64,000 nt of DNA from Thunnus maccoyii (Eukaryota; Chordata; Actinopteri; Scombriformes; Scombridae). The stretch covers positions 16,580,501 to 16,644,500 of the forward strand of contig NC_056540.1 of assembly GCF_910596095.1 (NCBI RefSeq), given 5' to 3'. Positions 1,668 through 59,990 of the stretch are shown here, in pieces. How positions within the stretch are numbered: the first letter of the stretch is position 1; the number at the start of each line of letters is the position of its first letter. The translations under genes were made by a program, and so were the position numbers. The notes beneath the pieces were generated by a model, which did no database searches, was not told the DNA's origin, and was given only the letters and a program-made list of their open reading frames with translations.

Positions 1668-1688
1668 GTCTCTGTCCGTGGTGCTGAA
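1668..1688 (-). promoter_or_regulatory. RE1/NRSE site (REST/NRSF), distal site of E1
   Basis: The core ctgtccgtggtgctgaa is the exact reverse complement of the RE1 consensus start TTCAGCACCACGGACAG. It lies about 880 bp before the E1 start codon. Flanking sequence (gccattcaatatgagcc before it, a pyrimidine-rich run and agccatg after it) resembles that of the RE1 copies in later spacers, so it is an ancestral part of the repeating unit. Confidence 0.8.
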
Positions 1689-2067
1689 ACAAGTGCAACT
1701 GGGAACAATTTTTCTCCCTTTTAGCCATGACTTCTGGATCATTCATTCATAATTTTTAATAATACTACTACTATAGTAGTAATGATAATAATTATGTAAA
1801 TATTTTAATGTCCCCTCAGTGATAGTATCAATCTTGAATATTTTGTTAAACACTGTAAGATCATCTTAAAATCAAGTATATCTAAAGGCATACACATGCA
1901 GTATTTTATTTTAAATGCATCTTCCTAATAAACATTTTAGTAACACATATTTTAAAGCATTCTGTGTGTGAATTGATTTCATCCATATGGTCAAGACTTT
2001 ATAGCTGTAACATATCGCCAAACCAATGGCACGTTATATCAGATCCTGACTGTATAAGGAGCGGCTG

Positions 2068-2088
2068 TAGTTTATCCATGGTGCCGAA
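2068..2088 (-). promoter_or_regulatory. degenerate RE1-like site, proximal site of E1
   Basis: The sequence tatccatggtgccgaa keeps most of one half-site but has several mismatches to the consensus. Its place, 480 bp before the start codon, matches the proximal RE1 of E6 and E7. It is probably a decayed copy. Confidence 0.4.
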
Positions 2089-2344
2089 TCATGCTTTATC
2101 AGTACAAATTATTATTTTTTTAAAAATGTTTTTATCAGCTATTCAGGTTTTTATCTGCAAGTAAATACGCTTTAGACGTAATGTCAATAAACACAATTTT
2201 TTCCACATTGAATACGCTACTCATTTATCTTTGAACATTATCCATTAGATTTGTGTTTTACAAATGGCACACAGTTCGCGTGAAAGGTGGATAAGGCAGG
2301 GTCAGTTCAGTATTGCTTGCATGCAGGTGCAAGGAATGAAAAGC

Positions 2345-2374
2345 GACTCATGGTGCCGCTGTGGGCTAGCACAA
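2345..2374 (+). promoter_or_regulatory. CSE promoter element of E1
   Basis: It reads gactcatggtgccgctgtgg and continues with gctagcac, aligned with the gactcacggcgtcgctgttg box of the neighbours. The CGCT core is kept at 2357, 211 bp before ATG, but the base before it is changed (gccgct instead of gtcgct). A CCACCC box follows at 2392. Confidence 0.8.
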
Positions 2375-2567
2375 AACCATCACAGACATCTCCACCCACT
2401 GTTACTGCATTACAGTTGTAATTTCTCACAAGAATCACTTCATTCCATGACTACTATTCGTCGTGTTTGCTTTTACGAAATATTGGATTACTGACTGCTT
2501 TTTGGAATTGGATTTTTTTTTTATCTGGACATTAATTTGTTCAAGCCGTAAACGTGTTTTTACGAGG

Positions 2568-4952
2568 ATGGGAGACAAAGGATTTTCAGCGCTAGGCCCG
2601 ATCTTCTGCTTTGCTTCCTTCTTTGTATCGCTGCACCTCGTTTATGGAGACCTGAGTTATTCTATTCCAGAAGAGATGAAACGTGACTCAGTCATTGGAA
2701 ATATAGCCAAAGATCTCGGTCTCGACCTGAGGACTCTATCTTCACGAAAGGCGCGTGTTGATTTTGAAGGGACTCGTAAACGGTACTGTGACATTAATCT
2801 AAGTACCGGAGATTTGATTATATCGGAAAGAATTGATAGAGAAAGCCTTTGCAGCAAGAGACCCTCGTGTGTGTTTAATGTAGATCTGGTGTTAGAAAAT
2901 CCTTTGGAGCTTCATCGTGTAACTCTTCATATTCAGGATGTAAATGACAACGCGCCGAAATTCAAGAAAAATTTGATTGAAATGGAAATAAGAGAGTCAG
3001 CAGACAAAGGCAACCGGTTCTCAATCGAGGAGGCCCATGACGCAGATATAGGTCAAAATGCTGTTCAAAGGTACAACCTACAGCAGAACGACAACTTTAT
3101 TCTCGCCGTTGACAGCAACAAGGTTGAACTCGTGCTAGAAAATACACTTGATCGAGAGAAACAAAATGAGCTGAATTTGCTTCTCACAGCTTTAGATGGT
3201 GGCTCTCCTCAGAGATCAGGTACAGTAGTCATACACGTCACTGTACTCGATGCTAATGATAACGCCCCAGTGTTTAGCCAGGCCGTTTACAAAGCCAGTC
3301 TGCCTGAAAACTCTCCTCCAGGTACCACAGTGATTCGTGTCAGTGCTACTGACGCAGATGAAGGAGTGAATGGAGATTTGACATATGACTTTGGCCATGT
3401 GTCAGACGATGATGTAAATGTATTTTCTATTGACCCTACAACGGGAGAAATTAGAGTTACTGGTGTGATTGATTTTGAAGACAGTAGTTCTTTTGAAATG
3501 AGAGTGGAAGCTAAAGATGGTTTAGGGTTAACCTCATACGCCAAAGTTATAATAGATGTTACGGATGTAAATGACAATGCTCCAGTGATATATCTGAAAT
3601 CACTGTCTAATCCCATACCTGAGAATGTGTCACCTGGTACAGAGGTGGGCATCATTAACGTGCAGGACAGAGACTCTGAGAACAATGGACAGGTCCGCTG
3701 CTCCATTCAACAAAATGACCCTTTTAAGTTGGTTCCTTCTATTAAAAACTACTATTCTCTGGTGACTACAGGACAACTGGACCGTGAACTAGTGTCTGAT
3801 TACAACATTACAATCACTGCCACAGACGAGGGCTCTCCACCTCTGTCCTCATCTAAAACTGTTCAGTTATCTGTAGCAGACATCAACGACAACCCACCTG
3901 TGTTTGAGGAACAGTCCTACAGCGCATATGTGACTGAAAATAACAAACCTGGCTCCACTTTATGTTCCGTTACTGCCCGAGACTCCGACTGGAGACAAAA
4001 CGGTACAGTAATTTATTCTCTGTTACCCGTTGAGGTGAACGGAGCCCCGGTGTCCTCCTATGTATCTGTTAACGGAGACACGGGGGTGATCCACGCTGTG
4101 AGGTCGTTTGATTATGAACAGTTCAAGAGTTTTAAAGTCCACGTGATGGCCAGAGACAACGGTTCTCCTCCGCTCAGCAGCAACGTGACCGTCAGTGTGT
4201 TCATATCGGATGTGAATGACAACTCTCCTCAGATACTGTACCCCGCCCCGGAGGGCAACTCCTTCATGACCGAGCTGGTCCCCAAAGCTGCACATGGAGG
4301 TTCTCTGGTGTCCAAAGTGATAGCGGTGGACGCGGATTCCGGACAGAACGCCTGGCTGTCCTATCATATAGTCAAATCCACTGATCCGGGACTTTTCAGT
4401 ATTGGTCTCCATAGCGGAGAGATCAGGACACAGCGGGACATTTCTGAATCTGACAGCATGAAACAGAACCTTATTGTGTCAGTGAAAGATAACGGACAGC
4501 CCTCTCTCTCTGCCACCTGTTCCATGTATTTACTTATTTCTGATAACTTGGCTGAGGTCCCAGAACTGAAGGATATTTCTTATGATGAGAAGAATTCTAA
4601 ACTGACCTCTTATCTGATCATCGCGCTGGTGTCTGTTTCCACGTTTTTTCTGACCTTCATTATCATCATCCTGGGTGTGAGGTTTTGTCGCAGGAGAAAG
4701 CCCAGACTGTTGTTTGATGGAGCAGTTGCCATCCCCAGCGCTTATCTCCCTCCGAATTACGCAGATGTTGACGGCACTGGAACTTTACGCAGCACTTATA
4801 ATTATGACGCCTACTTGACAACAGGGTCCAGAACCAGTGACTTTAAGTTCGTGACATCTTACAATGACAACACTCTGCCTGCTGACCAGACTCTGAGGAA
4901 AAGTCCGTCAGACTTTGCTGATCCGTTCGAAGATTTGGAGGCTTCTGTAGAG
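2568..4952 (+). CDS. pcdhg: protocadherin gamma-type variable exon E1
   Basis: This is the first exon of one clustered-protocadherin isoform, a neuronal surface adhesion protein; it supplies the whole ectodomain, membrane helix and variable cytoplasmic part. It has 795 codons from the ATG in agg-ATG-G, the start shared by E2-E7; an upstream in-frame GTG at 2463 is not used. Visible parts are a signal peptide (1-27), EC1 (28-130) with the CSKRPSC loop at 95-101, and EC2 to about 236, EC3 to 342, EC4 to 445, EC5 to 555 and EC6 to about 675. Each EC1-EC5 ends in DxNDNxP. The helix spans about 681-706, followed by [14 protein letters not shown]. In the family, EC1-EC4 give homophilic trans recognition and EC6 cis pairing. 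The frame ends GAG|GTAGGA at phase 0. A local oddity is ARDSDW where the other exons have DPDW. Confidence 0.95.
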
Positions 4953-5348
4953 GTAGGAACCATTCAAACACTCCTTACAACAGATATCATTTCTTGCGTC
5001 TTTTTTGAGTTGTCCTTCTTCCAGTAGTTATCTATGTTAACGAAATAGAAAAGTGGTTTATGGTTGTTGAAGTGTAATGTTATCTTAATGAAGGTGCATT
5101 TTCGTTCCAATTGTCACTATCTCATTTGTAAAACACCTCAGCAAATATTTAAATATTTTTTCCTGTTTATCTCCGCGACCATTGAACTCACCATTTCATT
5201 TATACTTGTGAAACGTGTCTTTTCTTCTTTTGCTCATGTAAAAACACAGTGTTTACTTATTGTAGACTGTGTTATTTCAGGGGTCTTGCTTTATAAAGAT
5301 AAACATTTATTTTGACTTCTGACAAAGAATTGTTGATTATATCTACTT

Positions 5349-6233: not shown

Positions 6234-6254
6234 GTATCTGTCCGTGGTGCTGAA
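6234..6254 (-). promoter_or_regulatory. RE1/NRSE site of E2
   Basis: It has a perfect ctgtccgtggtgctgaa core, 502 bp before the E2 ATG. The preceding caaccagccc matches the distal sites of E3, E5, E6 and E7, so it is that site brought closer by loss of the intervening segment. Confidence 0.85.
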
Positions 6255-6755: not shown

Positions 6756-9140
6756 ATGGGAGACAAAGGATTTTCAGTGCTTCGTCCGATCTTCTGCTTT
6801 GTTTCCTTCTTTGTAACGCTGCACCTCGTTTATGGAGACCTGAGTTATTCTATACCAGAAGAGATGAAACGCAATTCTGTTATTGGAAATATAGCCAAAG
6901 ATCTGGGTCTCGACATGAGGAGTTTATCTTCACGAAAGGCTCGTGTTGATTTTGAAGGGACTCGTAAACGGTACTGTGACATTAATCTGAATACCGGAGA
7001 TTTGATTATATCGGAAAGAATTGACAGAGAAAGCCTTTGTAGCAAGAAACCCTCGTGTGCTTTAAAAGTAGACCTAGTGTTAGAAAATCCTTTGGAACTT
7101 CATCGCATAACTCTTCATATTCAGGATGTAAATGACAATTCGCCCAAATTTAGGGATAATTTGATTGAAATGGAAATATGGGAGTCCGCTGAAAAGGGTA
7201 ACCGCTTCTCTATCGAGGAGGCCCATGACGCAGATATAGGTCAAAATGCTGTTCAAAGGTACAACCTACAGCAGAACGACAACTTTATTCTTGCTGTTGA
7301 CAACAAAAAGGTTGAACTCGTACTGGAGAATAAACTTGATCGAGAAAAGCAAAGAGAGATAAATTTGCTTCTCACAGCTTTAGATGGTGGCCATCCTCAG
7401 AGATCAGGAACGGTAGTCATACACGTCACTGTACTGGATGCTAATGATAACGCCCCAGTGTTTAGCCAGGCCGTTTATAAAGCCAGTCTGCCGGAAAACT
7501 CTCCTCTCGATACTATAGTGCTCACAGTGAGTGCTACTGATGCAGATGAAGGAGTGAATGGAGATGTGACATATCACTTTGGCCACATATCTGATGACGA
7601 TGTAAATGTTTTCTCAATTGATCCTAAAACGGGAGATATTAGAGTAACTGGTGAAATTGATTATGAAGACAGCAGTTCTTTTGAGATAAGAGTACAAGCT
7701 AAAGATGGTTTGGGGCTAACCTCATACGCCCAATTTATGATAGATTTTATGGATGTAAATGACAATGCTCCACTGATATATCTGAAATCATTGACTGATC
7801 CCATACCTGAGAATGTGTCACCTGGTACAGAGGTGGGCATCATTAATGTGCAGGACAGAGACTCTGAGAATAACGGACAGGTCCGCTGCTCCATTCAGCA
7901 AGGCGCCCCCTTTAAGTTGGTTCCTTCTATTAAAAACTACTATTCTCTGGTGACTACAGGACAACTGGACCGTGAACTAGTGTCTGATTACAACATTACA
8001 ATCACTGCCACTGACGAGGGCTCTCCACCTCTGTCCTCCTCTAAAACTGTTCAGTTATCTGTAGCAGACATCAACGACAACCCACCTGTGTTTGAGGAAC
8101 AGTCCTATAGCGCATATGTGACTGAAAATAACAAACCTGGCTCCACTTTATGTTCCGTTAGTGCTCGAGACCCCGACTGGAGACAAAACGGTACAGTGAT
8201 TTATTCTCTGTTACCTGGTGAGGTGAACGGAGCCCCGGTGTCCTCCTATGTATCTGTTAACGGGGACATGGGGGTGATCCACGCTGTGAGGTCGTTTGAT
8301 TATGAACAGTTCAGGAGTTTTAAAGTGCACGTGATGGCCAGAGACAACGGTTCTCCTCCGCTCAGCAGCAACGTGACCGTCAGTGTGTTCATATCTGATG
8401 TGAATGACAACTCTCCTCAGATACTGTACCCCGCCCCGGAGGGCAACTCCTTCATGACCGAGCTGGTCCCCAAAGCTGCACACGGAGGCTCTCTGGTGTC
8501 CAAAGTGATAGCGGTGGACGCGGACTCCGGACAGAACGCCTGGCTGTCCTATCATATAGTCAAATCCACTGATCCGGGACTTTTCAATATTGGTGTCCAC
8601 AGCGGAGAGATCAGGACACAGCGGGACATTTCTGAATCTGACAGCATGAAACAGAACCTTATTGTGGCAGTGAAAGATAACGGACAGCCCTCTCTCTCTG
8701 CCACCTGTTCCATGTATTTACTTATTTCTGATAACTTGGCTGAGGTCCCAGAACTGAAGGATATTTCTTATGATGAGAAGAATTCCAAACTGACCTCTTA
8801 TCTGATCATCGCGCTGGTGTCTGTGTCCACCTTTTTTCTAACATTCATCATCATCATCCTGGGTGTGAGGTTTTGTCGCAGGAGAAAGCCCAGACTGTTG
8901 TTTGATGGAGCAGTTGCCATCCCCAGCGCTTATCTTCCTCCTAATTACGCAGATGTTGACGGCACAGGAACTTTACGCAGCACTTATAATTATGACGCCT
9001 ACTTGACAACAGGATCTAGAACCAGTGACTTTAAGTTCGTGACATCTTACAATGACAACACTCTGCCTGCTGACCAAACTCTGAGGAAAAGTCCATCAGA
9101 CTTTGCTGATCCCTTCGAAGATTTGGAGGCTTCTGTAGAG
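6756..9140 (+). CDS. pcdhg: protocadherin gamma-type variable exon E2
   Basis: It has 795 codons, the same length and plan as E1, starting [15 protein letters not shown], with a signal peptide to about residue 27 and EC1 loop CSKKPSC. EC2 carries the [12 protein letters not shown] version of a two-state segment and GGHPQRSG where the others have GGSPQRSG. The EC3 end reads [12 protein letters not shown], with the calcium motif intact. EC5 has SARDPDW, a variant shared only with E3 and E4. The tail is [12 protein letters not shown], then GAG|GTAGGA. From EC4 on it is nearly identical to the other exons. An in-frame GTG at 6741 lies five codons upstream; the ATG is preferred by homology and by A at -3 with G at +4. 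Confidence 0.95.
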
Positions 9141-10513
9141 GTAGGAGCTGTGAAATTCCTCATCACAACTTACTAATTTTCTGCTTGTTTGTTGAATTCT
9201 TAAATGTCTGTCTGGCTGAAACAATTTAATGTGTCCGAATTTTCAAAGTGCTGTCTAGTTGTTGAAGATAAATTCGTTGTTTATTAGGAAAAAAAAAATC
9301 CCTTCTCATTATCTACTTTGTAAATTACGCCAGCAAATGTTAAACTTTTTTCTTATTTCCCCCAAGACATGGACCTGTTAATCAACGTTCTACATGTGAA
9401 ACATGTAATTTTCACTTTTTATTGTTGTCAATACACTTTGCTTATGTTCAGTGATAAGTTAATTTTGGTGGTCTAGTTTCAGAAAGATACATACTCATTA
9501 TGACTACTGACAAATACTCTTCACATCTAATTGGTTAATTTCAGAAAACTGTCAGTTAACGTGTGTGACTCCAATCAACTGTGATCCAATTTATGCTTAA
9601 ACCAGATGTTTTCAAGCGGAAAACATGGGCCCTATGAAAGAATTTTGGTGACAAGGACATTTTACCCAGAAACTGCATTAATGGGAATCGACATTAGTAA
9701 TAAAAATGATCTGTGCGCTCCTTCAAAAATATTTCACTTCCTGTTTTTTTATTTATTTTTCTCCGTTATCAGCAAGTCTCATTAAATGGTAGAAACACTG
9801 CAACTCGTAGTTCTCATTTAATTTAAGAATGGGAGGCAAAGCTTTTTAGCTCTAAAATGAGTAATACTTGACTTTGGTTAAGCTGTCTAACTCACATTAG
9901 ACCAGTGTAAGGACAAAAGGAGGACTAGTTTAAGTGAGTATAACAATGTGACACATGTCTTCTATGTGCAACCAGCCCTCAATATCTAAAGGTATCTGTC
10001 CGTAGTGCTGAAACAAGCATAACTGGCTATACTGTATCTTATTTCCCTTTAGTCTTATTTTCTGAATTTGAATAGGCTTAATGACATTTGTTGTACTACT
10101 ACTAATGCCGATTGGAAATGCCACACATGCACTTGTGTATTGATATTGTTGTATCATGACATGAGGTTACATCCCTCATTCAATAGTGAGATGCTGTATC
10201 TGTCAGTAATTCTGAGCTTTCGTCCCTGTTGAACTGCAGCGATGATTCTGGATCTTAACTTGTTCAGAACAAATTATGTTGTGCTTTTTGGATAATTACA
10301 TTTCTCTCTGTGTGATAGAACAGTATAACATCAGAGAAAACCTGCACTAGTCATATTTAATCAGCTCTGCTATTTTTCTCTCAGCCTTATCAATTGCAAT
10401 GTAGTAGGCTATATTTCAACATGTAGTGCGCACGAGGGTCAGTAAATATTACCTTAATGTGGTTTTAGAGTTTGTGCAGAACATTGCCTTGCATACCAGT
10501 GTGAAAATAAAAA
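9141..10513 (+). other. spacer E2-E3
   Basis: It is homologous along its length to spacers E4-E5 and E6-E7 (shared tttgttgaa, cattatgactactgac, gaatttgaataggctta and catcagagaaaacctgca). Reading through the donor stops at 9174-9176. Besides the RE1 site it has a decayed second RE1 copy near 10193-10216, where ctgtcagtaattctgag replaces ctgtcagtggtgctgaa. No gene is seen. Confidence 0.75.
9992..10012 (-). promoter_or_regulatory. RE1/NRSE site of E3
   Basis: It reads ctgtccgtagtgctgaa, one mismatch to the best core, 732 bp before the E3 ATG. It is preceded by gtgcaaccagccctcaatat as in the homologous spacers. Confidence 0.75.
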
Positions 10514-10743: not shown

Positions 10744-13128
10744 ATGGGAGACAAAGGATTTTCAGCGCTTGGTACAATCTTCTGCTTTGCTTCCATTATT
10801 GTAACGCTGCACCTCGTTTATGGAGACCTGAGTTATTCTATTCCAGAAGAGATGAAACGCGACTCTGTTATTGGAAATATAGCCAAAGATCTGAGTCTCG
10901 ACCTGAGGACTTTATCTTCACGAAAGGCCCGTGTTGATTTTGAAGGGACTCGTAAACGGTACTGTGACATTAATCTGAATACCGGAGATTTGATCACATC
11001 GGGAAGAATTGACAGAGAAAGCCTTTGTAGCAAGAAACCTTCCTGCATTGTCAAAGTGGACCTGGTGTTAGAAAATCCTTTGGAACTTCATCGCATAACT
11101 CTTCACATTCAAGATGTAAATGATAACTCGCCGAAATTCAAGAAAAATTTGATTGAAATGGAAATATGGGAGTCAGCTGAAAAGGGTAACCGCTTCTCAA
11201 TCGAGGAGGCCCATGACGCAGATATAGGTCAAAATGCTGTTCAAAGGTACAACCTACAGCAGAACGACAACTTTATTCTCGCCGTTGACAGCAACAAGGT
11301 TGAACTCGTGCTGGAGAATAAACTTGATCGAGAAAAGCAAAAAGAGATAAATTTGCTTCTCACAGCTTTAGATGGTGGCTCTCCTCAGAGATCAGGAACT
11401 GTAGTCATACACGTCACTGTATTGGATGCTAATGATAACGCCCCAGTGTTTAGCCAGGCCGTTTATAAAGCCATTCTGCCGGAAAACTCTCCTCCAGATA
11501 CCACAGTGATTCGTGTCAGTGCTACTGACGCAGATGAAGGAGTGAATGGAGATGTGACATATGACTTTGGCCATGTGTCAGACGATGATGTAAATGTATT
11601 TTCTATTGACCCTACAACGGGAGAAATTAGAGTTACTGGTGTGATTGATTTTGAAGACAGTAGTTCTTTTGAAATGAGAGTGGAAGCTAAAGATGGTTTA
11701 GGGTTAACCTCATACGCCAAAGTTATAATAGATGTTACGGATGGAAATGACAATGCTCCAGTGATATATCTGAAATCACTGACTAACCCCATACCTGAGA
11801 ATGTGTCACCTGGTACAGAGGTGGGCATCATTAACGTGCAGGACAGAGACTCTGAGAACAACGGACAGGTCCGCTGCTCCATTCAGCAAGGCGCCCCCTT
11901 TAAGTTGGTTCCTTCTATTAAAAACTACTATTCTCTGGTGACTACAGGACAACTGGACCGTGAACTAGTGTCTGATTACAACATTACAATCACTGCCACT
12001 GACGAGGGCTCTCCACCTCTGTCCTCCTCTAAAACTGTTCAGTTTTCTGTAGCAGACATCAACGACAACCCACCTGTGTTTGAGGAACAGTCCTACAGCG
12101 CATATGTGACTGAAAATAACAAACCTGGCTCTACTCTATGTTCCGTTAGTGCTCGAGACCCCGACTGGAGACAAAACGGTACAGTGATTTATTCTCTGTT
12201 ACCCGGTGAGGTGAACGGAGCCCCGGTGTCCTCCTATGTATCTGTTAACGGAGACACGGGGGTGATCCACGCCGTCAGGTCGTTTGATTATGAACAGTTC
12301 AGGAGTTTTAAAGTCCACGTGATGGCCAGAGACAACGGTTCTCCTCCGCTCAGCAGCAACGTGACCGTCAGTGTGTTCATATCGGATGTGAATGACAACT
12401 CTCCTCAGATACTGTACCCCGCCCCGGAGGGCAACTCCTTCATGACCGAGCTGGTCCCCAAAGCTGCACACGGAGGCTCTCTGGTATCCAAAGTGATAGC
12501 GGTGGACGCGGACTCCGGACAGAACGCCTGGCTGTCCTATCATATAGTCAAATCCACTGATCCGGGACTTTTCAGTATTGGTCTCCACAGCGGAGAGATC
12601 AGGACACAGCGGGACATTTCTGAATCTGACAGCATGAAACAGAACCTCATTGTGGCAGTGAAAGATAACGGACAGCCCTCTCTCTCTGCCACCTGTTCCA
12701 TGTATTTACTTATTTCTGATAACTTGGCTGAGGTCCCAGAACTGAAGGATATTTCTTATGATGAGAAGAATTCCAAACTGACCTCTTATCTGATCATCGC
12801 GCTGGTGTCGGTGTCCACCTTTTTTCTAACATTCATTATCATCATCCTGGGTGTGAGGTTTTGTCGCAGGAGAAAGCCCAGACTGTTGTTTGATGGAGCA
12901 GTTGCCATCCCCAGCGCTTATCTCCCTCCTAATTACGCAGATGTTGACGGCACAGGAACTTTACGCAGCACTTATAATTATGACGCCTACTTGACAACAG
13001 GGTCTAGAACCAGTGACTTTAAGTTCGTGACATCTTACAATGACAACACTCTGCCTGCTGACCAGACTCTGAGGAAAAGCCCATCAGATTTTGCTGATCC
13101 GTTCGAAGATTTGGAGGCCTCTGTAGAG
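10744..13128 (+). CDS. pcdhg: protocadherin gamma-type variable exon E3
   Basis: It has 795 codons starting [15 protein letters not shown], with a signal peptide to residue 27 and EC1 loop CSKKPSC. EC2 and EC3 are close to E1 ([32 protein letters not shown]). The notable change is at the EC3-EC4 calcium linker: DGNDNAP replaces DVNDNAP. The calcium-binding Asp and Asn residues are kept, so function need not be lost. EC1 has [10 protein letters not shown] (Ser for Gly) and TSGRIDRES (Gly for Glu in the otherwise constant ERIDRES). The tail is [12 protein letters not shown] with donor GAG|GTAGGA. Its 3' flank matches that of E1, not its neighbour E2. Confidence 0.95.
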
Positions 13129-21866: not shown

Positions 21867-21890
21867 TATTGATAAAACAATCGCCACAAA

Positions 21891-21902
21891 CACACACACA
21901 CG

Positions 21903-46794: not shown

Positions 46795-47599
46795 GTAGGC
46801 ACATGCGCTTGTTTATAGCAGAGTCAATACCTCAATTCATTTTGAGGCCTTGCTCTTAAAAATAGAAATCAGAATTTGTTACATAACGTAAACACCACTT
46901 TTATTGTGTAGTTAATATTTAGTTCATTGGCTGGACTGATGCATAAAAACACGTGATTGCCATCAGAATAGTTGGCCTTTTGGCCTAAATTGCTTTTCTA
47001 AAACATTTAAAAGTGCATTGTTGTATATTTCTAAGAAAACATACAACATTTTGATACCTGTCAAAGAAACAGTATCAAATTAATTAGGTCATGCTATATA
47101 TATCAAACCGAGAAGTTTTTTCATGGATCCATCGTATTCCTCAGCTCCCTATTGCCAATATCATCCTTAAAATTTACCAATGTTGTACTCAATTTCTGTT
47201 ATATTTAACCGTGAAATACAAGTGCTTTTTCTCAATGTTTGTATTCAGAAAAAAGACCACAGCTGGGTCATTATTAATTTCGTTTTGCAGTACTGAACGT
47301 CTTATGACACCCGTGATAAACATGAGCTCTGGTCCATGGTGCGCGTTACACTATACTAAGGTATCTATCCATGGTGCTGAAACCAGTTTAACCCGTACAA
47401 TTCTCACCATCATCACTGATGTGCAATAAAAGCAGTTTTAAAGAGTTAAATACTGGCATTTAAAACAGAAAACTCATGTCTACATTTTCTTATAGTCTTC
47501 TATTGATGTTTCAATCTGACTGCAGCCTGGGCTATGATGTTCTATTCTTTCTCATCAGAATTCTTAGTTATTTAAGTCTTTTGTAATACCTACAATTTG
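46795..47599 (+). other. spacer E11-E12, shortest
   Basis: It is 1.0 kb to the next ATG. It contains a weak RE1-like half (ctggtccatggtgcgcg, about 47329-47345) just before a better site. No gene is seen; the ORF at 47091-47429 covers the RE1 area. Confidence 0.7.
47361..47381 (-). promoter_or_regulatory. RE1/NRSE site of E12
   Basis: It reads ctatccatggtgctgaa, two mismatches, 448 bp before ATG. Confidence 0.68.
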
Positions 47600-47828: not shown

Positions 47829-50225
47829 ATGGGATACAAAGGATTTTCAGTGCTCGGCCTGGTTACCTCTTTGGGAGTTTTTCTTCTGCCGCTGCAAACC
47901 GTTTGTGGAGATGTGGCCTATTCTTTTCCAGAGGAGATGAAACGCGGCTCAGTTGTTGGAAATATAGCGAAAGATATAGGGCTTGATGTGAGCAAACTGT
48001 CTGCTCGAAAGGCTCGTATTGATGCAGACGGGAACAACAAACGGTATTGTGACATTAATCTCAGTACGGGAGATATCATTGTTGTCGAAAGGATTGACAG
48101 AGAGGGGCTTTGTGGCAAAAAGGCATCTTGCGTTTTAAAACAGGAACTTGTTTTAGAGAACCCTTTAGAGTTGCACCGCATTAGTGTTCACGTTCAAGAT
48201 ATCAACGATAATTCTCCACAGTTTAAAAAGAATACCATAAACTTTGAAATTAGAGAGTCGGCAACCAAAGGAAGTCGCTATCGTTTAGATGAGGCCCACG
48301 ATGCAGACATCGGACAAAACGCCATCCAGAGCTATAGCATTGAAGCAAATGAAAACTTCAGATTAAATGTTATTGCAAAAAGCGCAGGTGGAAAATATAG
48401 TGAGTTAGTTTTAGAGAAGGAGCTGGATAGAGAGCAGCAGCAAGAGCTAACGATTGTGATTGTCGCTACAGACGGAGGCACACCTCAGAGATCAGGTACT
48501 GCAGTCGTCCACGTCACTGTGCTGGATGCCAATGATAACGCCCCAGTGTTTAGCCAAACCATTTATAAAGCCAGTCTTCCCGAAAACTCTCCTTTAGACA
48601 CTGTAGTGGTCACGGTTAGCGCAACTGATGCAGACGAGGGAATAAATGGAAAAGTGACGTATGAGTTTGATCACATTTCTGATGAAAATAACGTGTTTGC
48701 TCTTGATCAGGCAACAGGAGAGGTCAGAGTGAGTGGACCAATAGATTATGAGGATTTGTCCACCTATGAAATGCAAATTACAGCCAAGGATGGTCTTGGG
48801 TTAGTGTCATCCTGTACATTAATAATTGACGTCGCAGATGTCAATGACAACGCCCCCCTAACGTTTATTAAGTCCTTGAGAAATCTCATTCCAGAAGATA
48901 CCCCTCCCGGTACAGAGGTAGGCATCATTAACGTGCAGGACAGAGACTCTGAGAATAACGGACAGGTCCGCTGCTCCATTCTACAAAACGCCCCTTTTAA
49001 GTTAGTCCCTTCTATTAAAAACTACTATTCTCTGTTGACTACAGGACAACTGGACCGTGAACTAGTGTCTGATTACAACATTACAATCACTGCCACTGAC
49101 GAGGGCTCTCCACCTCTGTCCTCCTCTAAAACTGTTCAGTTATCTGTAGCAGACATCAACGACAACCCACCTGTGTTTGAGGAACAGTCCTACAGCGCAT
49201 ATGTGACTGAAAATAACAAACCTGGCTCCACTTTATGTTCCGTTACTGCTCGAGACCCCGACTGGAGACAAAACGGCACAGTGATTTATTCTCTGTTACC
49301 TAGTGAGGTGAACGGAGCCCCGATGTCCTCTTATCTATCTGTTAACGGAGACACGGGGGTGATCCATGCTGTGAGGTCGTTTGATTATGAACAGTTCAGG
49401 AGTTTTAAAGTGCACGTGATGGCCAGAGACAATGGTTCTCCTCCGCTCAGCAGCAACGTGACCGTCAGTGTGTTCATATCGGATGTGAATGACAACTCTC
49501 CTCAGATTCTGTACCCCGCCCCGGAGGGCAACTCCTTCATGACCGAGCTGGTCCCCAAAGCTGCACACGGAGGCTCTCTGGTGTCCAAAGTGATAGCGGT
49601 GGACGCGGACTCCGGACAGAACGCCTGGCTGTCCTATCATATAGTCAAATCCACTGATCCGGGACTTTTCAGTATTGGTCTCCACAGCGGAGAGATCAGG
49701 ACACAGCGGGACATTTCTGAATCTGACAGCATGAAACAGAACCTTATTGTGTCAGTGAAAGATAACGGACAGCCCTCTCTCTCTGCCACCTGTTCCATGT
49801 ATTTACTTATTTCTGATAACTTGGCTGAGGTCCCAGAACTGAAGGATATTTCTTATGATGAGAGGAATTCCAAGCTGACCTCTTATCTGATCATCGCGCT
49901 GGTGTCCGTTTCCACCTTTTTTCTGACCTTCATTATCATCATCCTGGGTGTGAGGTTTTGTCGCAGGAGAAAGCCCAGACTGTTGTTTGATGGAGCAGTT
50001 GCCATCCCCAGCGCTTATCTCCCTCCTAATTACGCAGATGTTGACGGCACTGGAACTTTACGCAGCACTTATAATTATGACGCCTACTTGACAACAGGAT
50101 CTAGAACCAGTGACTTTAAGTTCGTGACATCTTACAATGACAACACTCTGCCTGCTGACCAGACTTTGAGGAAAAGTCCATCAGACTTTGTTGAAGAATT
50201 CGGTCAGTCAGACAATTCCTTAGAG
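47829..50225 (+). CDS. pcdhg: protocadherin gamma-type variable exon E12
   Basis: It has 799 codons from ATG in gaa-ATG-G, starting [15 protein letters not shown], with a signal peptide to residue 27. EC1 begins [10 protein letters not shown] and has loop CGKKASC. EC2 is of the long type ([20 protein letters not shown]), while EC3 is nearer the first type ([31 protein letters not shown]). The EC4 start is its own ([12 protein letters not shown] against [12 protein letters not shown]), so the shared block begins about 9 codons later, near 48909. Other own changes are [25 protein letters not shown] and YDERNSK. It shares [11 protein letters not shown] with E10. The tail is [12 protein letters not shown] with donor GAG|GTAGGT. 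Confidence 0.95.
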
Positions 50226-52778
50226 GTAGGTTCACATATATTTTACCTTTGCGCTTCGTGATTAACCACTATTGGTCCTGTTTATATAATTTGTCAAGTG
50301 CATCGGATTTCATAAAGGCATTTGAATATTTTGATGGTCATCTTTTGTACCATTCCATTGTCTCTATGAACTTTCACCTATTGTCTCATTGTACCTCGTT
50401 GCTCACTATGGTAACATGTTATGATGCAAGTTTTCAATATATTTCCACATTAATCTAAACAAGTTCTATCAAGTATAATTAATTTCAAGCTTGTTGACCT
50501 TGTGTTAGATCAAGACTAATATCTTTTTGACTGGTTTGGCTAATCTAAGAATAACAAAACCTTCTTTTTCTAGCAAATATTTCCTTCAGAAAAACTATAC
50601 ATCAATGAGATCGCAGTTATTTGCACAGTGCCTTTGAAATGTGTTAGACACTATATGTTTGTGTCCATACTGGCTGCAGTATAGGTAAACTACAGGAGTT
50701 ATAGCCACATTCTATAGTTTGTCTCTTGTTCGTTGAAATATGTTTGGTCAGTTATGCTTTCTGATTATTCCAGCACAAACATCATGCTGCAGACCTAGCT
50801 GCCATGAGAGTGGATTGCATTTGGACTGTCATTGTATTTGTTTCCCTTTTATACTTTCATGCACAAAGAAGTACAGTGAGGAAACCCTCTTCCTGTTCCT
50901 GTACATTTTGCACCACACTGTATCCTGGAACAGATTAAACAAATTGAAAGCAACACATGCAAAATTTATAATTTGGTATTTCAACCTTAAAATTCACCCT
51001 TTGTCATCTGGCAATAGGGTGAATGTAGACAACGCAAACCGCTGCCGAAAACTTGATCACAAGTTTCAAAATTTGTTGGATAATACAATTTAGTAGAGAC
51101 ACCTGTCGCAATTTACTTCATTTTCTTTTGGCGAATAGCATCAAGTCATATAATTACCTTGGTGCTCAGTGAGGCATGACATATCTATCATTTAGTAATG
51201 AAAAGTGTGGGTCCATGAATGGCACCAGTGCTGACACACTTTATATCTTGGTTTAGTACAATGTACATATATATATAATATATGTATATATATATATATA
51301 TTGTTTTTTACAAACTGCGAAGTCATAATGTTACACCAGTATGCCATCTTTTAGGGAGAGTTCTATCAACTTTCTACACAGCTGTATATTTTCATAGGAT
51401 AATACACAGATTAATACAGAAGAAGAAGTCATATGGATTCAATAAGGGTGTTGTGCTAAAATCATAAAAGCATAACAAACAGTAAAGTGTGTACTCTGAG
51501 GAAATCCCTCTGGCTAAGGCCATTTATCACCTCATTTTGACATTTTCAGGTGTATCAAAGCACAGGTTAATACCTACATTAGTAGTTTACTGACAATTGT
51601 CAAGTAGGGAAGGGTTTGTCTTTTCTTAGGAAAATGCCTCAGTTATTTCATGATAGGGGACTAAAGTTCTCTTAGTGTACCATGTACTGTACCCAGTGCA
51701 AGAATATACTTTACTAGCCTGGTAGTAGTTGTATTTGAATATACAAGTATGTGGTGTCAGTTGGAGTTCATTCTGTCCTTTCAGACGGCCAATTAATGGC
51801 TCAAATGTCTAAGGGCATGTGGGGGGCCTTGCCTACTTATGAATTAAGATTTTAAATTGGTGAAATGTTTCCTAAATATAGGCCTATATTTAGTATGATA
51901 ATGGATAATGTTTTTTGTTTGTTCAGTTGTATTATAGTGGTCTATTTAACAAGGTCAAAGCCATCATTTATATATCATTCAGCTTTAATTTAACCCAGTA
52001 CATACAACACAAAGGTTTCAATTGTAATATTTGATTTTGGTATATTTGATCAGCATTACAAGCAAATGTTTAATCAAACATATGCAACATATTCTGTTCC
52101 TACATAATACACAAAGACAAAACAAAAGCAAAAAACCCCTTTCAAACAATATTTTCACTGCAGAAATGTTGATGAGGATCTCTGTCTCTGTGTTTCCCTT
52201 TTTATTAACTCGTTTGTTACTCTTTTGTCTCTGTGATGCTGAGGGGAGTAGTGCTGGTCTCTAATCTGAAAGTCTCTTAAGGAGATGGTTGATACTTACT
52301 TAGTGCTGTGCTTTGTGTGCCATTGTTACTTAACCTTACTCTGTCTAGTTGAGGTTCATGGCACAATTTTCTGTCGCATTTTTTTCATGCATTTAATCAG
52401 AGTCTTTGTGTGCACATTATTTCATCTTAACGTGGATTAATCACTTTTTAAGTAAATAATCAAATGTAGCACTGAGTGCATTGGAGTACTGTGTCTTTTG
52501 CAGTATTGCAGATATTGAGGGTTGCTTTTATTTGCAGACAGCTTATGAAGAATGCAATGCAGAAAAATATTCAGTAGTCACTAAATAACACTGAATCCTC
52601 TTACTCAGACACAAAAGATAAAGCATTGACAACAGTTTGGTCATTCATAGTAGCAAATATATGCAATGTATTAGATTATCGTTATAATAAACAAATGACT
52701 AAATAATAAAAAACCTATGCCTTAACAATCAGTGCAGTTATCAATTTATTTTACTTTGCAGTGCTATAACTGGATAAA
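50226..52778 (+). other. spacer E12-E13
   Basis: It is 2.7 kb, AT-rich, with a (TA)n tract and no convincing RE1 core or gene. Weak look-alikes (gtgtccatactggctgcag near 50671; ctctgtgatgctgag near 52230) have too many mismatches or gaps. ORFs are short and featureless. Confidence 0.65.
51266..51301. repeat. (TA)n microsatellite
   Basis: Imperfect TA run with one ataatatatg interruption. Confidence 0.9.
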
Positions 52779-52810: not shown

Positions 52811-52969
52811 GAAAAGGTCAGCTGCTTCATCCCATTTTTTCCACCATTGCAAAGCTTTGTTGCGGTATTTCTGTCGGTTGAGGAGGGTACAAAAGGTCCA
52901 AGAAGGAATACAACCGTTCTTGATCAGTTTGAAATCATTTGTCGGGGAAGGATGAACGTTTGTTCTCTC

Positions 52970-55372
52970 ATGGGAAATACGGTGTACAGAGGATTTACTA
53001 TGAGTCGCTGTTGTGTTGTTTTCCTTTTCATCAGCCTGCATTTCGTGTATGGAGATGTGAGCTACTCTATCGCAGAGGAGATGAAACGCGGGTCTGTGGT
53101 TGGAAATATAGCCAAAGATCTCGGCCTTGGGATTCCCACACTTTCCTCGCGTAAAGCTCGCATTGACACAGACAGGAATGACAAACGGTATTGCGACATT
53201 AATCTTAGCACCGGAGATCTGATTGTTACTGACAGGATCGACAGGGAGGGTCTTTGTGGTAAGAAGGCGACTTGCGTTTTAAAAGAAGAGCTTGTTTTGG
53301 AAAACCCTTTAGAGCTTCATCGTCTCAGTATTCATGTGCAAGATATAAACGACAACGCCCCACAGTTTAGTGAGGACTTGATTTCATTTGAAATACTAGA
53401 ATCAGCCGTGAAAGGAGCTAGATTCTTACTCACGGAAGCCCATGATGCAGATATCGGTACAAATACTGTACAGCGCTACAATTTACAAAATAATGAGCAT
53501 TTCACCATTAATGTAGATACAGGGGGTAGTGGAAGGAAACACTCCGAATTGGTCTTGGTAAAAGAATTAGACCGGGAACAAGAGAAAGAACTAAAATTGC
53601 TGCTTACAGCTATAGATGGTGGATCTCCACAGAGATCAGGTACTGCGATCATACACATTACTGTACTGGATGCTAATGATAACGCCCCAGTGTTTAGCCA
53701 GGCCGTTTATAAAGCCAGCGTGCCTGAAAACGCACCTTTGGATACTCTAGTTGTTAGAGTGAGCGCTACTGATGCAGACGCGGGACCCAACGGTGATATT
53801 ATATACAATTTTGATCATGTATCTGATGAGCATGTCTCTTTGTTCTCGCTTGATCCTAAGAAAGGAGAGGTAAGAGTCATCGGCTCTATTGATTATGAAA
53901 CTGAGACCTCCGTTGAACTGCGAATAAGAGCAAAAGATGGACCAGGTCTTACCTCGTATTGTACAGTAATTATAGATATAACAGACGTGAATGACAACCC
54001 ACCTGCTATCAGCTTGAAATCACTGTCTAACCCCATACCTGAGAATGTGTCACCTGGTACGGAGGTGGGCATCATTAACGTGCAGGACAGAGACTCTGAG
54101 AATAACCGACAGGTCCGCTGCTCCATTCAGCAAAGCGTCCCTTTTAAGTTGGTTCCTTCTATTAAAAACTACTATTCTCTGGTGACTACGGGACAACTGG
54201 ACCGTGAACTAGTGTCTGATTACAACATTACAATCACTGCCACTGATGAGGGCTCTCCACCTCTGTCCTCCTCTAAAACTGTTCAGTTTTCTGTAGCAGA
54301 CATCAACGACAACCCACCTGTGTTTGAGGAACAGTCCTACAGCGCATATGTGACTGAAAATAACAAACCTGGCTCCACTTTATGTTCCGTTACCGCTCGA
54401 GACCCCGACTGGAGACAAAACGGCACAGTGATTTATTCTCTGTTACCTGGTGAGGTGAATGGAGCCCCGGTGTCCTCCTATCTATCTGTTAACGGAGACA
54501 CGGGGGTGATCCACGCTGTGAGGTCGTTTGATTATGAACAGTTCCGGAGTTTTAAAGTCCACGTGATGGCCAGAGACAACGGTTCTCCTCCGCTCAGCAG
54601 CAACGTGACCGTCAGTGTGTTCATATCTGATGTGAATGACAACTCTCCTCAGATACTGTACCCTGCCCCGGAGGGCAACTCCTTCATGACTGAGCTGGTC
54701 CCCAAAGCTGCACACGGAGGCTCTCTGGTGTCCAAAGTGATAGCTGTGGACGCGGACTCCGGACAGAACGCCTGGCTGTCGTATCATATAGTCAAATCCA
54801 CTGATCCGGGACTTTTCAGTATTGGTCTCCACAGCGGAGAGATCAGGACACAGCGGGACATTTCTGAATCTGACAGCATGAAACAGAACCTTATTGTGTC
54901 AGTGAAAGATAATGGACAGCCCTCTCTCTCTGCCACCTGTTCCATGTATTTACTTATTTCTGATAATTTGGCTGAGGTCCCAGAACTGAAGGATATTTCT
55001 TATGATGAGAAGAATTCCAAATTGACGTCTTATCTGATCATCGCGCTGGTGTCCGTGTCCACTTTTTTTCTGACTTTTATCATCATCATCCTGGGTGTGA
55101 GGTTTTGTCGCAGGAGAAAGCCCAGACTGTTGTTTGATGGAGCAGTTGCCATCCCCAGCGCGTATCTCCCTCCTAATTACGCAGATGTTGACGGCACAGG
55201 AACTTTGCGCAGCACTTATAATTATGACGCCTACTTGACAACAGGATCTAGAACCAGTGACTTTAAGTTCGTAACATCTTACAATGACAACACTCTGCCT
55301 GCTGACCAGACTCTGAGGAAAAGTCCATCAGACTTTGCAGAAGTGTTTGGGGATTGTGATAATTCTCCTGAG
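52970..55372 (+). CDS. pcdhg: protocadherin gamma-type variable exon E13
   Basis: It has 801 codons from the Met of MGNTVYRGF, chosen because it gives a 28-residue signal peptide ending FVYG like E1-E7. A Met at 52952 with better context (A at -3) would add six residues, and one at 53000 would remove ten. EC1 reads [10 protein letters not shown] with loop CGKKATC. EC2 is of the long type ([20 protein letters not shown]), EC3 nearer the first type ([17 protein letters not shown]). The EC3-EC4 linker is [15 protein letters not shown] in EC4 is shared with E8, E14 and E15. The tail is [12 protein letters not shown], close to that of E14/E15, with donor GAG|GTAAGA. Confidence 0.93.
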
Positions 55373-56988
55373 GTAAGAGTACCAAACATCTGATCCATTA
55401 TTTTATCAAAAAAACGACATCTTTTTTTCAAATTTGTGACTAGCAGTGTGAAATTTATGTTGATCATTTAAAAAAATATCAGAAAAGCATATTCCTTCAG
55501 TGTCTATACGTTGTAAAGATTTGTCATTAGATAAAAATTGGATTTAGAAAAAAAGTCAATCGTTGGAGTTCTAAAACAGTTATGACATTAGCAATTAATC
55601 AGGAATCCCAATTTTTCCCAGAAACATTTACTAATTCATTTCAATACTAAATCTTTTATTAGATTCAGTTTGTTTCCATTACTGAGTAGTTGTATTTGGT
55701 TGCATTTGTGGCTGCCTTTACAGCCATTTTTGTAGATGGACACACTTCGAGACTCCATTCTAGGTGAGGTTTTTAAATCTTCGCACATTTATTGAGTGCT
55801 GATATGTTTCATTTTCATAAAAGTTTGGTTATTTCCAACATGTTTACAGGAATCAGAGTCATATCAAATCTTCCTCTTTAAAGTATTGGAAATTTTTTCA
55901 CTGATGATAATTTCCTTGATTTTGTTGACTAATTTAACTTTTGAGGGAACATTTAAACTTGTCTCAGTGTTTGTTGTTGTGGGTAAGGATATGTTGTTCA
56001 GATAGACTCTTTTCTTTCTTTCTTTGCTCACAGAAAATAACCCATACCCTGTAAATCATGTTATAACCTATGTTTGAAGGGGTCTCGTTGGTTATCTTTC
56101 ATGTATGTAGTACATCATCTTCTACAGTAAAACTACATGTGTTTCAGTTTTGAGGAGCCTTCACGAGTAACAAATCCTCAATGTTTCTCTATATATTTCT
56201 AATGTCATATTCATATTTAGGTCGCAGATATGCAACCTATTTCCTTTTTACCTGTATGTTTTTTTATTTGCTAGTCTTTGAATGGTCATGAATTTGTTTC
56301 CATTTTCAGTAGCGCTTTGCAGTAAAGTCTAGCTCTTTGTCAGAGTTGTGGGATTTTGTAACCACTGCGTAGCCTGTGCAAGATTGTAGTGGAATTAATC
56401 AAAGTGATTGCAATTAAACCAATTTTATTCTTTTTGTGCCCTTAATAACTTGTTAATTTCCCCTTGTTTTTCCTCTCTAGAATTTAATGAAATGTCAGTA
56501 AAAAGTAATTTGTCAATAGGCTTAAATCATTCCTTACATTAATTAAACAAGTTAGTTGGTAATTTATTTAACAATTTCAGTGTTTGAGAAAAAAAAAAAA
56601 AAAAGATGTCATCTTTCTTACTTTTTACAAATAAATTATAATTTGAGGCCAACGCAGTTGTGTGGATAGCTGTCATATCATTTCAAGAAATATTTAAGCA
56701 CAAAGATCCAATCGCTAAAAGCTAAACGTGGTAGACATATTTTTTAAAACAGGGATATAAATGTTCATGCAAATATGAGTATTTTTCACACCTAAAAGCA
56801 GCACTCAATATGAGATCCCCCAGTGAAATAAGGCTGTTGATTTAGAAGTGCCCTGTAGGTTTGATCCTGTTAACAAGTCTCAGGACATATTTCCGTTTAA
56901 AATTAATGTTTTCTTCATAGATATCTGTGTTCATTATTGTACGGTTTGTAAAGACAGATAGAAAAACAGCATGTAATTTCTAGAGGAG
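55373..56988 (+). other. spacer E13-E14
   Basis: It is 1.8 kb of AT-rich sequence with a poly-A run. I see no RE1 core and no gene. Confidence 0.65.
56589..56604. repeat. poly-A run
   Basis: About 16 A; no tail of a recognisable retroelement precedes it. Confidence 0.8.
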
Positions 56989-57015
56989 ACTCACGATGTC
57001 GCTCTTCACTAGCTG
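56989..57015 (+). promoter_or_regulatory. CSE promoter element of E14
   Basis: It reads actcacgatgtcgctcttca then ctagctg. The CGCT core is at 57000, 204 bp before ATG. A tccacccactg box follows at about 57039. Confidence 0.87.
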
Positions 57016-57203
57016 TATATGATTGTGTATCCATATATCCACCCACTGTTGCCGACACATAATGTGACTTGAGACGCTGCAGTTGATCGTCCAGAGAGGC
57101 AGAGACTGGGACTTGTATTGTGTCGATTTGGGTCTAAATCCTTATTTTTTGGCTGTGTTCCTGTGCACTGACTAGGAAACGTGAACTGTCTCAGATCGGC
57201 GCA

Positions 57204-59585
57204 ATGATGGCTATCACTGCATTCCCATTACAAAACGGTGTCGTGGCTTTACTCCTCCTTTCTTTGTATTTTGCCAATGGAGATATAAGCTATTCTTTTC
57301 CGGAGGAGGTGAGACGCGGATCCGTGATCGGAAATATCGCCAAAGACCTGGGCCTTGATGCAAACAGACTATCCTTTCGGAAGGCCCGCATTGATACCGA
57401 TGGGAGCGCCAAACTTTATTGTGACATAAACCTAACGAACGGGGATCTGACTGTAGCCGAGAGGATTGACAGAGAGGGCCTTTGTGGAGACAAAGCATCC
57501 TGCGTGTTAAAACAGGAACTGATGTTAGAGAATCCATTAGAGTTGCATCGAATTAACCTTCATGTCCAGGACATAAATGATAACTCTCCACAATTTAATA
57601 AAGATCTGATTCATATAGATATTAGTGAATCAGCGGCAAAAGGTGCTCGTTTTCCAATAGAAGAAGCACATGATGCGGACATAGGCAAATATTCAGTTCA
57701 GACGTACAACCTGCAGCAGAATGAGAATTTTATTTTGGGCGTTGGAACAAATTCTGTGGAACTCGTCCTTAACAAAGAGCTTGACCGTGAAACTTTAAAG
57801 GAAATTAATCTGCTTCTTACAGCTGTGGATGGTGGTTCCCCTCAAAAGTCAGGTATTGTGGTCATTCACATCACTGTACTGGATGCTAATGATAACGTCC
57901 CAGTGTTCGACCAGGCTGTTTATAAAACCAGTCTGCCTGAAAACTCTCCACTAGGTACGGTCGTGCTTACAGTAAGTGCTACTGATGCAGATGAGGGACT
58001 AAATGGAGATGTTACATATGATTTTGGACACATTTCAGAGGATGTTAAGTCAATGTTTACAATAGATCACAAGACAGGCGGTATAAAATTGATGACTGCG
58101 ATTGATTTTGAATCAGTGTCATCATTTGAGCTGCGTGTCACAGCAAAAGATGGTTTGGGATTAACTTCTTATGCCAAAGTCATTATAGATGTTACTGATG
58201 TGAATGATAACGCCCCGGTTATATATCTAAAATCACTCAACAGTCCCATACCTGAGAATGTGTCACCTGGTACAGAGGTGGGCATCATTAACGTGCAGGA
58301 CAGAGACTCTGAGAATAACCGACAGGTCCGCTGCTCCATTCAGCAAAACGTCCCTTTTAAGTTGGTTCCTTCTATTAAAAACTACTATTCTCTGGTGACT
58401 ACAGGACAACTGGACCGTGAACTAGTGTCTGATTACAACATTACAATCACCGCCAGTGACGAAGGCTCTCCACCTCTGTCCTCCTCTAAAACTGTTCAGT
58501 TATCTGTAGCAGACATCAACGACAACCCACCTGTGTTTGAGGAACAGTCCTACAGCGCATATGTGACTGAAAATAACAAACCTGGCTCCACTCTATCTTC
58601 CGTTACTGCTCGAGACCCTGACTGGCGACAAAACGGCACAGTGATTTATTCTCTGTTACCTGGTGAGGTGAACGGAGCCCCGGTGTCCTCCTATGTATCT
58701 GTTAACGGAGACACGGGGGTGATCCACGCTGTGAGGTCGTTTGATTATGAACAGTTCCGGAGTTTTAAAGTCCACGTGATGGCCAGAGACAACGGTTCTC
58801 CTCCGCTCAGCAGCAACGTGACCGTCAGTGTGTTCATATCGGATGTGAATGACAACTCTCCTCAGATACTGTACCCCGCCCCGGAGGGCAACTCCTTCAT
58901 GACCGAGCTGGTCCCCAAAGCTGCACACGGAGGCTCTCTGGTGTCCAAAGTGATAGCGGTGGACGCGGACTCCGGACAGAACGCCTGGCTGTCCTATCAT
59001 ATAGTCAAATCCACTGATCCGGGACTTTTCAGTATTGGTCTCCACAGCGGAGAGATCAGGACACAGCGGGACATTTCTGAATCTGACAGCATGAAACAGA
59101 ACCTTATTGTGTCCGTGAAAGATAACGGACAGCCCTCTCTCTCTGCCACCTGTTCCATGTATTTACTTATTTCTGATAACTTGGCTGAGGTCCCAGAACT
59201 GAAGGATATTTCTTATGATGAGAAGAATTCCAAGCTGACCTCTTATCTGATCATCGCGCTGGTGTCTGTGTCCACCTTTTTTCTGACCTTCATTATCATC
59301 ATCCTGGGTGTGAGGTTTTGTCGCAGGAGAAAGCCCAGACTGTTGTTCGATGGAGCAGTTGCCATCCCCAGCGCTTATCTCCCTCCTAATTACGCAGATG
59401 TTGACGGCACAGGAACTTTACGCAGCACTTATAATTATGACGCCTACTTGACAACAGGATCTAGAACCAGTGACTTTAAGTTCGTGACATCTTACAATGA
59501 CAACACTCTGCCTGCTGACCAGACTCTGAGGAAAAGTCCATCAGACTTTGCTGAGGTGTTTGGGGATTGTGATCGCTCTCCTGAG
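57204..59585 (+). CDS. pcdhg: protocadherin gamma-type variable exon E14
   Basis: It has 794 codons starting [13 protein letters not shown] (two adjacent Met), with a signal peptide to about residue 26. EC1 reads [14 protein letters not shown] with loop CGDKASC. EC2 and EC3 are of the first type ([32 protein letters not shown]). In EC5 the Cys present in every other exon ([10 protein letters not shown]) is Ser ([10 protein letters not shown]), and EC4 has TASDEG for TATDEG. The tail [12 protein letters not shown], the donor GAG|GTAGGA and the following 111 bases, an open 36-codon read-through, are the same as in E15. No RE1 site was found in its spacer. Confidence 0.95.
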
Positions 59586-59970
59586 GTAGGAACAGGTGCC
59601 ACATATCGTTTGATGTACTTGTACATTAAGGATTCAGCGAATACCTTTTCGGTTACAATTTGCACTTCCCTTTCTTGTCTGTTTTCTTTATTTTAATTTA
59701 TTTAGACAGTGTAACATATGAGTTGATTCAGACTAAAGCAGACGTGACTATGCATTGTGGAGTATGTTAAATAGTAATGTTTTATTTGCTATTTTTCAAT
59801 CGCTTAGAGTTTTCCAACGTAGCATATTGATATTTCCAATTCTGTGGTCATTCGAGTAGGGGCTGTTCATGTTGTTACTCTTATCTTTTTTCTGAAAATA
59901 CCATTACTCTTAACACTGAATTGGGGTCTCGGCGTTGCCTCTCGAGTAGAGCTACATCTTGTTCTTTGTG
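59586..59970 (+). repeat. duplicated 3' flank, copy 1 (after E14)
   Basis: It matches 63520-64000 nearly base for base. Where copy 2 has 95 bases (63666-63760), this copy has two (attcag-ac-taaagcag). Confidence 0.9.
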
Positions 59971-59990
59971 TCTCTGTCCTTGGTGCTGAA
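59970..59990 (-). promoter_or_regulatory. RE1/NRSE site of E15
   Basis: It reads ctgtccttggtgctgaa, one mismatch, 1136 bp before ATG, the farthest of the set. Confidence 0.78.

Follow-up and report, generated by a model that had tools for sequence, protein, structure and literature searches.

Putative REST-binding RE1/NRSE elements in the spacers of a clustered-protocadherin array of Thunnus maccoyii and their spread with the repeat units

How can a gene array that grows by duplicating its exons keep each new copy under the same tissue control? The question is raised by a stretch of 64,000 nt of Thunnus maccoyii DNA (the window, positions 16580501-16644500 of contig C8 in a 782-Mb assembly of 54 contigs). 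Judged by its sequence, the window is a clustered-protocadherin variable-exon array, whose host is most likely a teleost, and the spacers between its exons contain a recurrent motif that matches repressor element 1, or the neuron-restrictive silencer element (RE1/NRSE). We consider it very probable that these motifs are RE1/NRSE elements of the protocadherin locus, that is, putative REST silencers of the adjacent promoters that have been co-duplicated with their units.

The array comprises 15 open reading frames (ORFs) of 799-834 aa, all on the plus strand, from a search for frames of at least 250 aa. We number these variable exons E01-E15 in window order; coordinates beyond the window keep its numbering and are negative upstream. 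The four ORFs scanned of the 15 (E01, E08, E13 and E15) each contain an N-terminal cadherin-like domain, five cadherin repeats and a Cadherin_C_2 cytoplasmic segment, and the top-scoring solved chain for the E04 ORF is protocadherin gamma B4. A simple pattern finds a donor-like sequence close to the 3' end of all 15 ORFs, with splicing to constant exons predicted. The units have the form of a clustered protocadherin array, namely one large variable exon per unit with its own promoter and splice donor. Same-strand protocadherin frames extend beyond the window on both sides, and the 56 candidates that we scored, out of 429, all lie on contig C8; no relatives were confirmed in viral and prokaryote collections. 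E01-E07 form one group of close paralogues and E09/E11 another, the remaining exons being distinct, and at the setting used spacer alignments are confined to the same two groups, bar three pieces of 75-92 bp.

We scored the core TCAGCACCnnGGACAG, with 14 specified bases in 16 bp as printed in PMC3531662, by counting mismatches to this consensus in place of the JASPAR matrix. On both strands of the window we find 14 cores with at most one mismatch, eight of them perfect, having the TCAGCACC-2 nt-GGACAG core of the canonical RE1/NRSE; without exception they lie on the minus strand, in spacers and outside every exon frame. The perfect cores are at 1672-1687 (E01 distal slot, 896 bp before the ATG at 2568), 6238-6253 (E02) and 13905-13920 (E04), the last two with distal-type flanks, 21662-21677 and 21998-22013 (E06 distal and proximal slots), 35248-35263 (E09), 44033-44048 (E11) and 59974-59989 (E14 3' flank, upstream of E15). 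The other six, with one mismatch each, are at 9996-10011 (E03 distal slot), 17655-17670 (E05 distal slot), 25794-25809 and 25986-26001 (E07 distal and proximal slots), 39513-39528 (E10) and 47365-47380 (E12, with flanks like those of the E01-E07 distal site). The original prediction had listed these 14 sites and a weaker copy, all of which are in the sequence, with starts given four bases before the core (1668 for 1672). The weaker copy is the E01 proximal slot (2072-2087, minus strand, three mismatches). Two further minus-strand copies with two mismatches were absent from that list, one in the E01 spacer (1513-1528) and one in the E05 proximal slot (17859-17874), and a degenerate remnant with four mismatches occupies the E03 proximal slot (10200-10215, minus strand).

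Could so large a window simply yield such matches by chance? In 100 dinucleotide shuffles, both strands included, the mean number of cores with at most one mismatch is 0.03 per window, compared with the 14 found, so the expectation that the sites would outscore shuffled sequence is borne out for consensus mismatches. The genome's own RE1 density gives the same answer. Perfect 17-base RE1 matches number 710 in the host genome and none for the pattern read backward. For the wider locus we read 264 kb (the window flanked by 100 kb on either side), the 20 kb that follow downstream, and 270001-290000, with 184001-270000 left out. Counting perfect 17-mers, on which the enrichment rests, we observe eight in the window where 0.058 are expected (138-fold) and 23 in 284 kb of the locus where 0.26 are expected (89-fold, a figure that excludes the far 20 kb, 270001-290000, which had no perfect site). 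Thus 3.2% of all perfect sites in the genome fall within 0.036% of it. The Poisson probability against the genome's perfect-RE1 density is about 3e-15, a value that is too small since the copies are non-independent. Chance can hardly account for the sites.

How are the sites distributed over the units? The upstream spacers of 12 of the 15 exons hold a site with at most one mismatch, so that the predicted one or two sites per variable exon overstates the case; the spacers upstream of E08, E13 and E14 contain none, their best matches having four, four and five mismatches respectively. We considered wide-gap NRSEs for these three exons and rejected them: with gaps of 0-20 scanned at up to one mismatch, gap 2 alone recurs, and a single gap-13 match at 44022 overlaps the canonical site at 44033. 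Distances to the start codon, predicted as 350-1140 bp, are 369-1152 bp and so agree roughly; the site at 59974, which lies 278 bp past the stop of the preceding frame, belongs to a family whose site follows the preceding exon, and a fixed placement before each start does not hold. We also rejected exonic NRSEs of the mammalian kind, since the match conserved among the exons, 670-709 bp from the start of each, proves to be the VLDANDN codons with two to four mismatches. The best exonic RE1 match has two mismatches in one of the 15 exons (E08, at 32437) and three or four in the other 14; coding-exon sites of the mammalian form are thus not found in the window. As a speculation, the resemblance of the VLDANDN coding sequence to RE1 might have provided raw material for mammalian exonic NRSEs.

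It is also conceivable that the motif only resembles RE1 and serves another factor, or else has an architectural or recombination role. The uniform strand of the window's sites (14 of 14) would suit a directional element, and the 3' flank of the REST site is poorly matched in the window. The 21-bp RE1 consensus extends past GGACAG with CGCC; C follows GGACAG in only three of the 14 sites, which means that this 3' end of the consensus is mostly missing in the window and that the extended consensus is not found there. However, the CGCC flank lies outside the 16-bp core used in zebrafish, and our listing of flanks in the wider locus places C after GGACAG in most alpha-side and second-gamma sites, and in most sites outside the gamma family of the window. 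Moreover, all 14 specified positions together with the two-base gap match the RE1 core exactly in eight sites, gap 2 is the only one between 0 and 20 to recur at up to one mismatch, the core is abundant in the genome where the backward control is absent, and orientation is mixed in the wider cluster. We therefore judge another factor very unlikely and return to RE1/NRSE as the identity of the sites.

Does the recurrence of the element say anything about its function? The sites could be passive passengers, a single ancestral RE1-like sequence multiplied by recent tandem duplication and uninformative about what it does now. Because credit for recent copying had to be removed, we scored every spacer 16-mer, low-complexity ones left out, by its best match in the other seven groups. 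In this motif-blind recurrence test RE1 cores rank first and a promoter element of the CSE (conserved sequence element) type second, and each of the top 28 non-overlapping entries is either RE1 or CSE. The core thus recurs in spacers that are otherwise unalignable, apart from the three short pieces mentioned above, which a passive history would not readily produce. Within E01-E07 and E09/E11, on the other hand, the units are close copies with alignable spacers, as passengers would require. Here we compared the seven aligned distal sites of E01-E07 and found a mean difference of 0.061 over the 14 core positions versus 0.487 in the flanks; no stretch of the alignment is more conserved than the distal core, which ties for best of 301 windows with the same stretch shifted by one base (the alignments have the site at their centre, windows that overlap are non-independent, and gaps are scored as differences). 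This pattern supports the view that the distal site has been held against drift by selection among the seven paralogues. The proximal slot behaves differently, with mismatches rising from none in E06 to one in E07, two in E05, three in E01 and four in E03, and no proximal copy in E02 and E04; the one site in each of these two units is distal-type by its flanks yet lies 290-293 bp from the CSE. We infer that the E01-E07 group had two ancestral sites per unit, the spare one being in the process of loss. The three proximal copies with two to four mismatches, and the distal sites of E03, E05 and E07, would also suit passengers. Taken together with the roughly 17 flank groups, varying position and both orientations in the larger locus described below, we regard a purely passive origin as improbable, and continue with sites that are duplicated along with their units and at least partly maintained.

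The site of E12 provides a link between groups. It has 16 of 20 flanking bases in common with a distal site, as good a score as was reached by one in 4000 random positions, and in a test of 17 comparisons this one, E12 against the distal set, is alone clear. Such likeness makes descent from the same element probable, and the E12 site probably derives from the E01-E07 distal element. In the same flank test the sites of E09, E10, E11 and E15 have no significant likeness to those of E01-E07 and E12.

What happens to the element beyond the window? The 264-kb region contains 43 sites with at most one mismatch, and the next 20 kb downstream five further one-mismatch sites. Within the 264 kb, whose first spacer is clipped by the region edge, a site is present in 41 of the 55 exon spacers, and so sites occur in most units and outside the coding exon there as in the window. 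By class, with labels that are our own and derive from C-terminal motifs, the fractions are 11 of 16 alpha-type, 20 of 26 window-type gamma, eight of 11 second-gamma-type and two of two other spacers. The common strand that had been predicted is true of the window, and fails in the larger region, where six of the 43 sites are on the plus strand. These six belong to a downstream gamma subcluster, in which they fall between 68 bp upstream and 97 bp downstream of the preceding stop codon; one, at 141786, alone among the 43 overlaps an ORF, in its last 80 bp (where a site reached up to 80 bp into the preceding ORF we assigned it to the following spacer, as in this one case). In E14-type units the distance from the end of the preceding frame to the site is 278-560 bp, and that from the site to the following start codon 1.1-2.5 kb.

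That the element travels with its unit can be seen at the end of the window. Exons E14 and E15 hardly differ in their 3' parts and 3' flanks as far as the window reaches (59300-59970 and 63234-64000), the exception being some 90 bases inserted in the flank of E15; this likeness reflects either a recent duplication or a conversion reaching well into the intron. From it we expected a further site just past the window end, and a perfect core is indeed found at 64002. Together with the shared flanks, this extra copy upholds the proposal that the sites are built into the duplicating unit. The stronger reading, a site in every unit, does not survive, given that three of the 15 window exons and a number of units in the larger region have no site at this threshold.

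We grouped the flanks of the 48 sites, read in RE1 orientation, at 15 of 24 identities (for 20,000 random pairs the 99.9th percentile is 14 and the maximum 16) and obtained 17 groups, the largest with 12 (chained) and eight members. The grouping is rough: it chains E09/E11 with E14-type sites, none being significantly like E01-E07, it splits 21998 and 25986, though these align as one slot, and it isolates 141786 from the other plus-strand sites, apparently through a one-base shift. An inversion of one family was considered for the plus-strand sites; there is no sign of it, and their RE1-oriented flanks fall into separate groups. Position and strand are inherited per paralogue family and are not fixed across the array. 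Thus the strand bias of the window reflects descent, and its 14 of 14 uniformity comes mostly from non-independent copies. Since the place of the sites (upstream of the CSE or directly after the preceding exon) and their orientation differ among paralogue families, with no flank ancestry shared by the 24-base comparison, we put forward tentatively, and with slightly less than even confidence, that RE1 was gained several times independently in one cluster, under selection for one REST site per repeat unit with its position free, and that gain, doubling and decay are ongoing. Independent gain is likely rather than proven, because old shared flanks could have diverged past recognition.

Several observations weigh against the interpretation of the sites as maintained REST silencers. 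The few sites followed by C (three of 14) are one, and the mismatch in six of the 14 window sites is another; that of 9996 corresponds to the ninth-position C of PMC8096226, if position 1 is the first T of TTCAGCACC. Conservation is unremarkable in the proximal slot, which ranks 27 of 288 windows in four sequences, and the E09/E11 pair is uninformative, its site window being tied with 23 others. The distal sites of E03, E05 and E07 have a different substitution each, and constraint is therefore incomplete. In the 264-kb region 14 of the 55 exon spacers lack a site with at most one mismatch, and for two of the 41 positive ones the assignment to a C-type-like exon is by order only, the site being 13.7 kb and 2.1 kb away from that exon's ATG. 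Finally, the 20 kb of 270001-290000, with three exon frames, contain no RE1 even at up to two mismatches.

How might such an arrangement work? Most of the units examined carry one or two RE1 elements between the preceding exon and their own promoter, and tandem duplication of a unit carries the RE1 along, as the shared flanks show. In the best-studied paralogue group one site per unit, in the distal slot, is kept by selection, while a spare, presumably dispensable, decays. In non-neural cells and progenitors REST would bind the putative sites and repress the promoter next to them, perhaps through interference with CTCF/cohesin looping of the kind reported at the human HS5-1 enhancer. Units that lack a site would owe their silencing to neighbouring units, and loss of REST in neurons would free the promoters for stochastic choice. 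As the silencer sits in the copied unit, new isoforms would start silenced outside neurons. The locus would then illustrate how a multi-isoform neural identity locus could keep its tissue restriction while duplicating. Intact, weakened and lost copies in one cluster are natural test cases for how many REST sites are needed per promoter array, and the graded copies are also a natural test for neighbours covering units without a site.

The promoters themselves are marked by a CSE-type element, CTCANNGNGTCGCTGT, found with zero to two mismatches 172-230 bp before the ATG of all 15 exons (the pattern was derived from the window itself, without a chance control, and the best match was taken in the 450 bp before each ATG). 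In E01 it occupies 2347-2362 on the plus strand; it starts at 6531, 10518, 14195, 18173, 22319, 26297 and 31521 in E02-E08 and at 35434, 39778, 44222, 47600, 52780, 56990 and 60919 in E09-E15. The best CSE matches in alpha-type spacers have three to five mismatches. RE1 and CSE are 186-675 bp apart in the window spacers and 945 bp apart in the E15 case. The E08 copy (31521) continues into CACCAGCAGAGG, which we take to resemble a CTCF site; an action of the spacer RE1 sites on CTCF binding is speculation.

The variable-exon ORFs, all on the plus strand, are E01 (2568-5027), E02 (6756-9176), E03 (10744-13185), E04 (14420-16840), E05 (18398-20797), E06 (22543-24942), E07 (26496-28895), E08 (31746-34175), E09 (35617-38019), E10 (40008-42419), E11 (44404-46818), E12 (47829-50261), E13 (52952-55393), E14 (57204-59696) and E15 (61126-63630). 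The C-terminal cytoplasmic segment is nearly identical across the 15 exons (3' ends, for example 4750-4950 and 59300-59590), and the N-termini are more divergent; the likeness is comparable to the regional gene conversion described in PMC1852091 for the fugu and zebrafish clusters. The spacers after E08 and E10 (34176-35616 and 42420-44403, before E09 and E11) share long duplicated segments, with 84% identity across 1240 aligned bases and 93% across 203, and the C-terminal ends of E08 and E10 are the same, perhaps from a unit duplication with its breakpoint within an exon. Further downstream, the frames at 170954 and 178117 alternate with those at 174534 and 181697, with matching N-termini, which suggests a recent tandem duplication of a two-exon unit. 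Upstream, a 31-kb stretch (-28730 to 2568) separates a C-type-like frame (-31402) from E01; its sole RE1 with at most one mismatch is the E01 site at 1672, and it may contain the alpha constant exons.

How does this array compare with known systems? In fugu, Tan et al. 2010 reportedly found sites in 5' intergenic regions that bind NRSF/REST, with genes lacking an NRSE said to be served by their neighbours; zebrafish and other vertebrates were reportedly scanned too. The original prediction had confined earlier knowledge of multiple NRSEs to the mouse cluster; a review citing that fugu study places NRSEs in promoters in fugu as well, as against coding sequence in mammals, and states that constructs with neural expression in Xenopus tadpoles become ubiquitously expressed once the NRSE is deleted (PMC3601302). 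By this account the likeness to fugu is close, both being teleost clustered protocadherins with multiple NRSEs outside coding sequence; the assemblies are separate, with 782 Mb here and 400 Mb in fugu according to PMC1852091.

In human, PMC8096226 describes a single NRSE in each alpha and gamma-b alternate exon and two in each gamma-a exon, with gamma-a9 an exception; REST binding in PCDH alpha and gamma variable exons by electrophoretic mobility shift assay, with ChIP (chromatin immunoprecipitation)-nexus sites in variable regions; and lowered enhancer-promoter contacts with REST at the HS5-1 enhancer. Its sites a, b and c are inside the coding exon in human PCDH alpha and gamma, whereas the tuna sites are in spacers. 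In zebrafish, NRSEs with the 14-base core limit expression to the brain when added to reporters, according to PMC3531662; these transgenes have the same core in a living teleost, but are synthetic constructs outside the protocadherin cluster.

Among the matches listed for protocadherin with REST or NRSE, where subscription papers are mostly uncovered, no title concerns NRSE turnover or orientation within a protocadherin cluster. The unit slots, the flank groups, the opposite orientation in the downstream gamma subcluster and the turnover of sites are described here from sequence, and Tan et al. 2010 may already cover parts of this. The arrangement is largely known from pufferfish and mammals. 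The contribution here is descriptive: the position and strand of the element differ by paralogue family, the number of sites drifts, and the element follows its unit.

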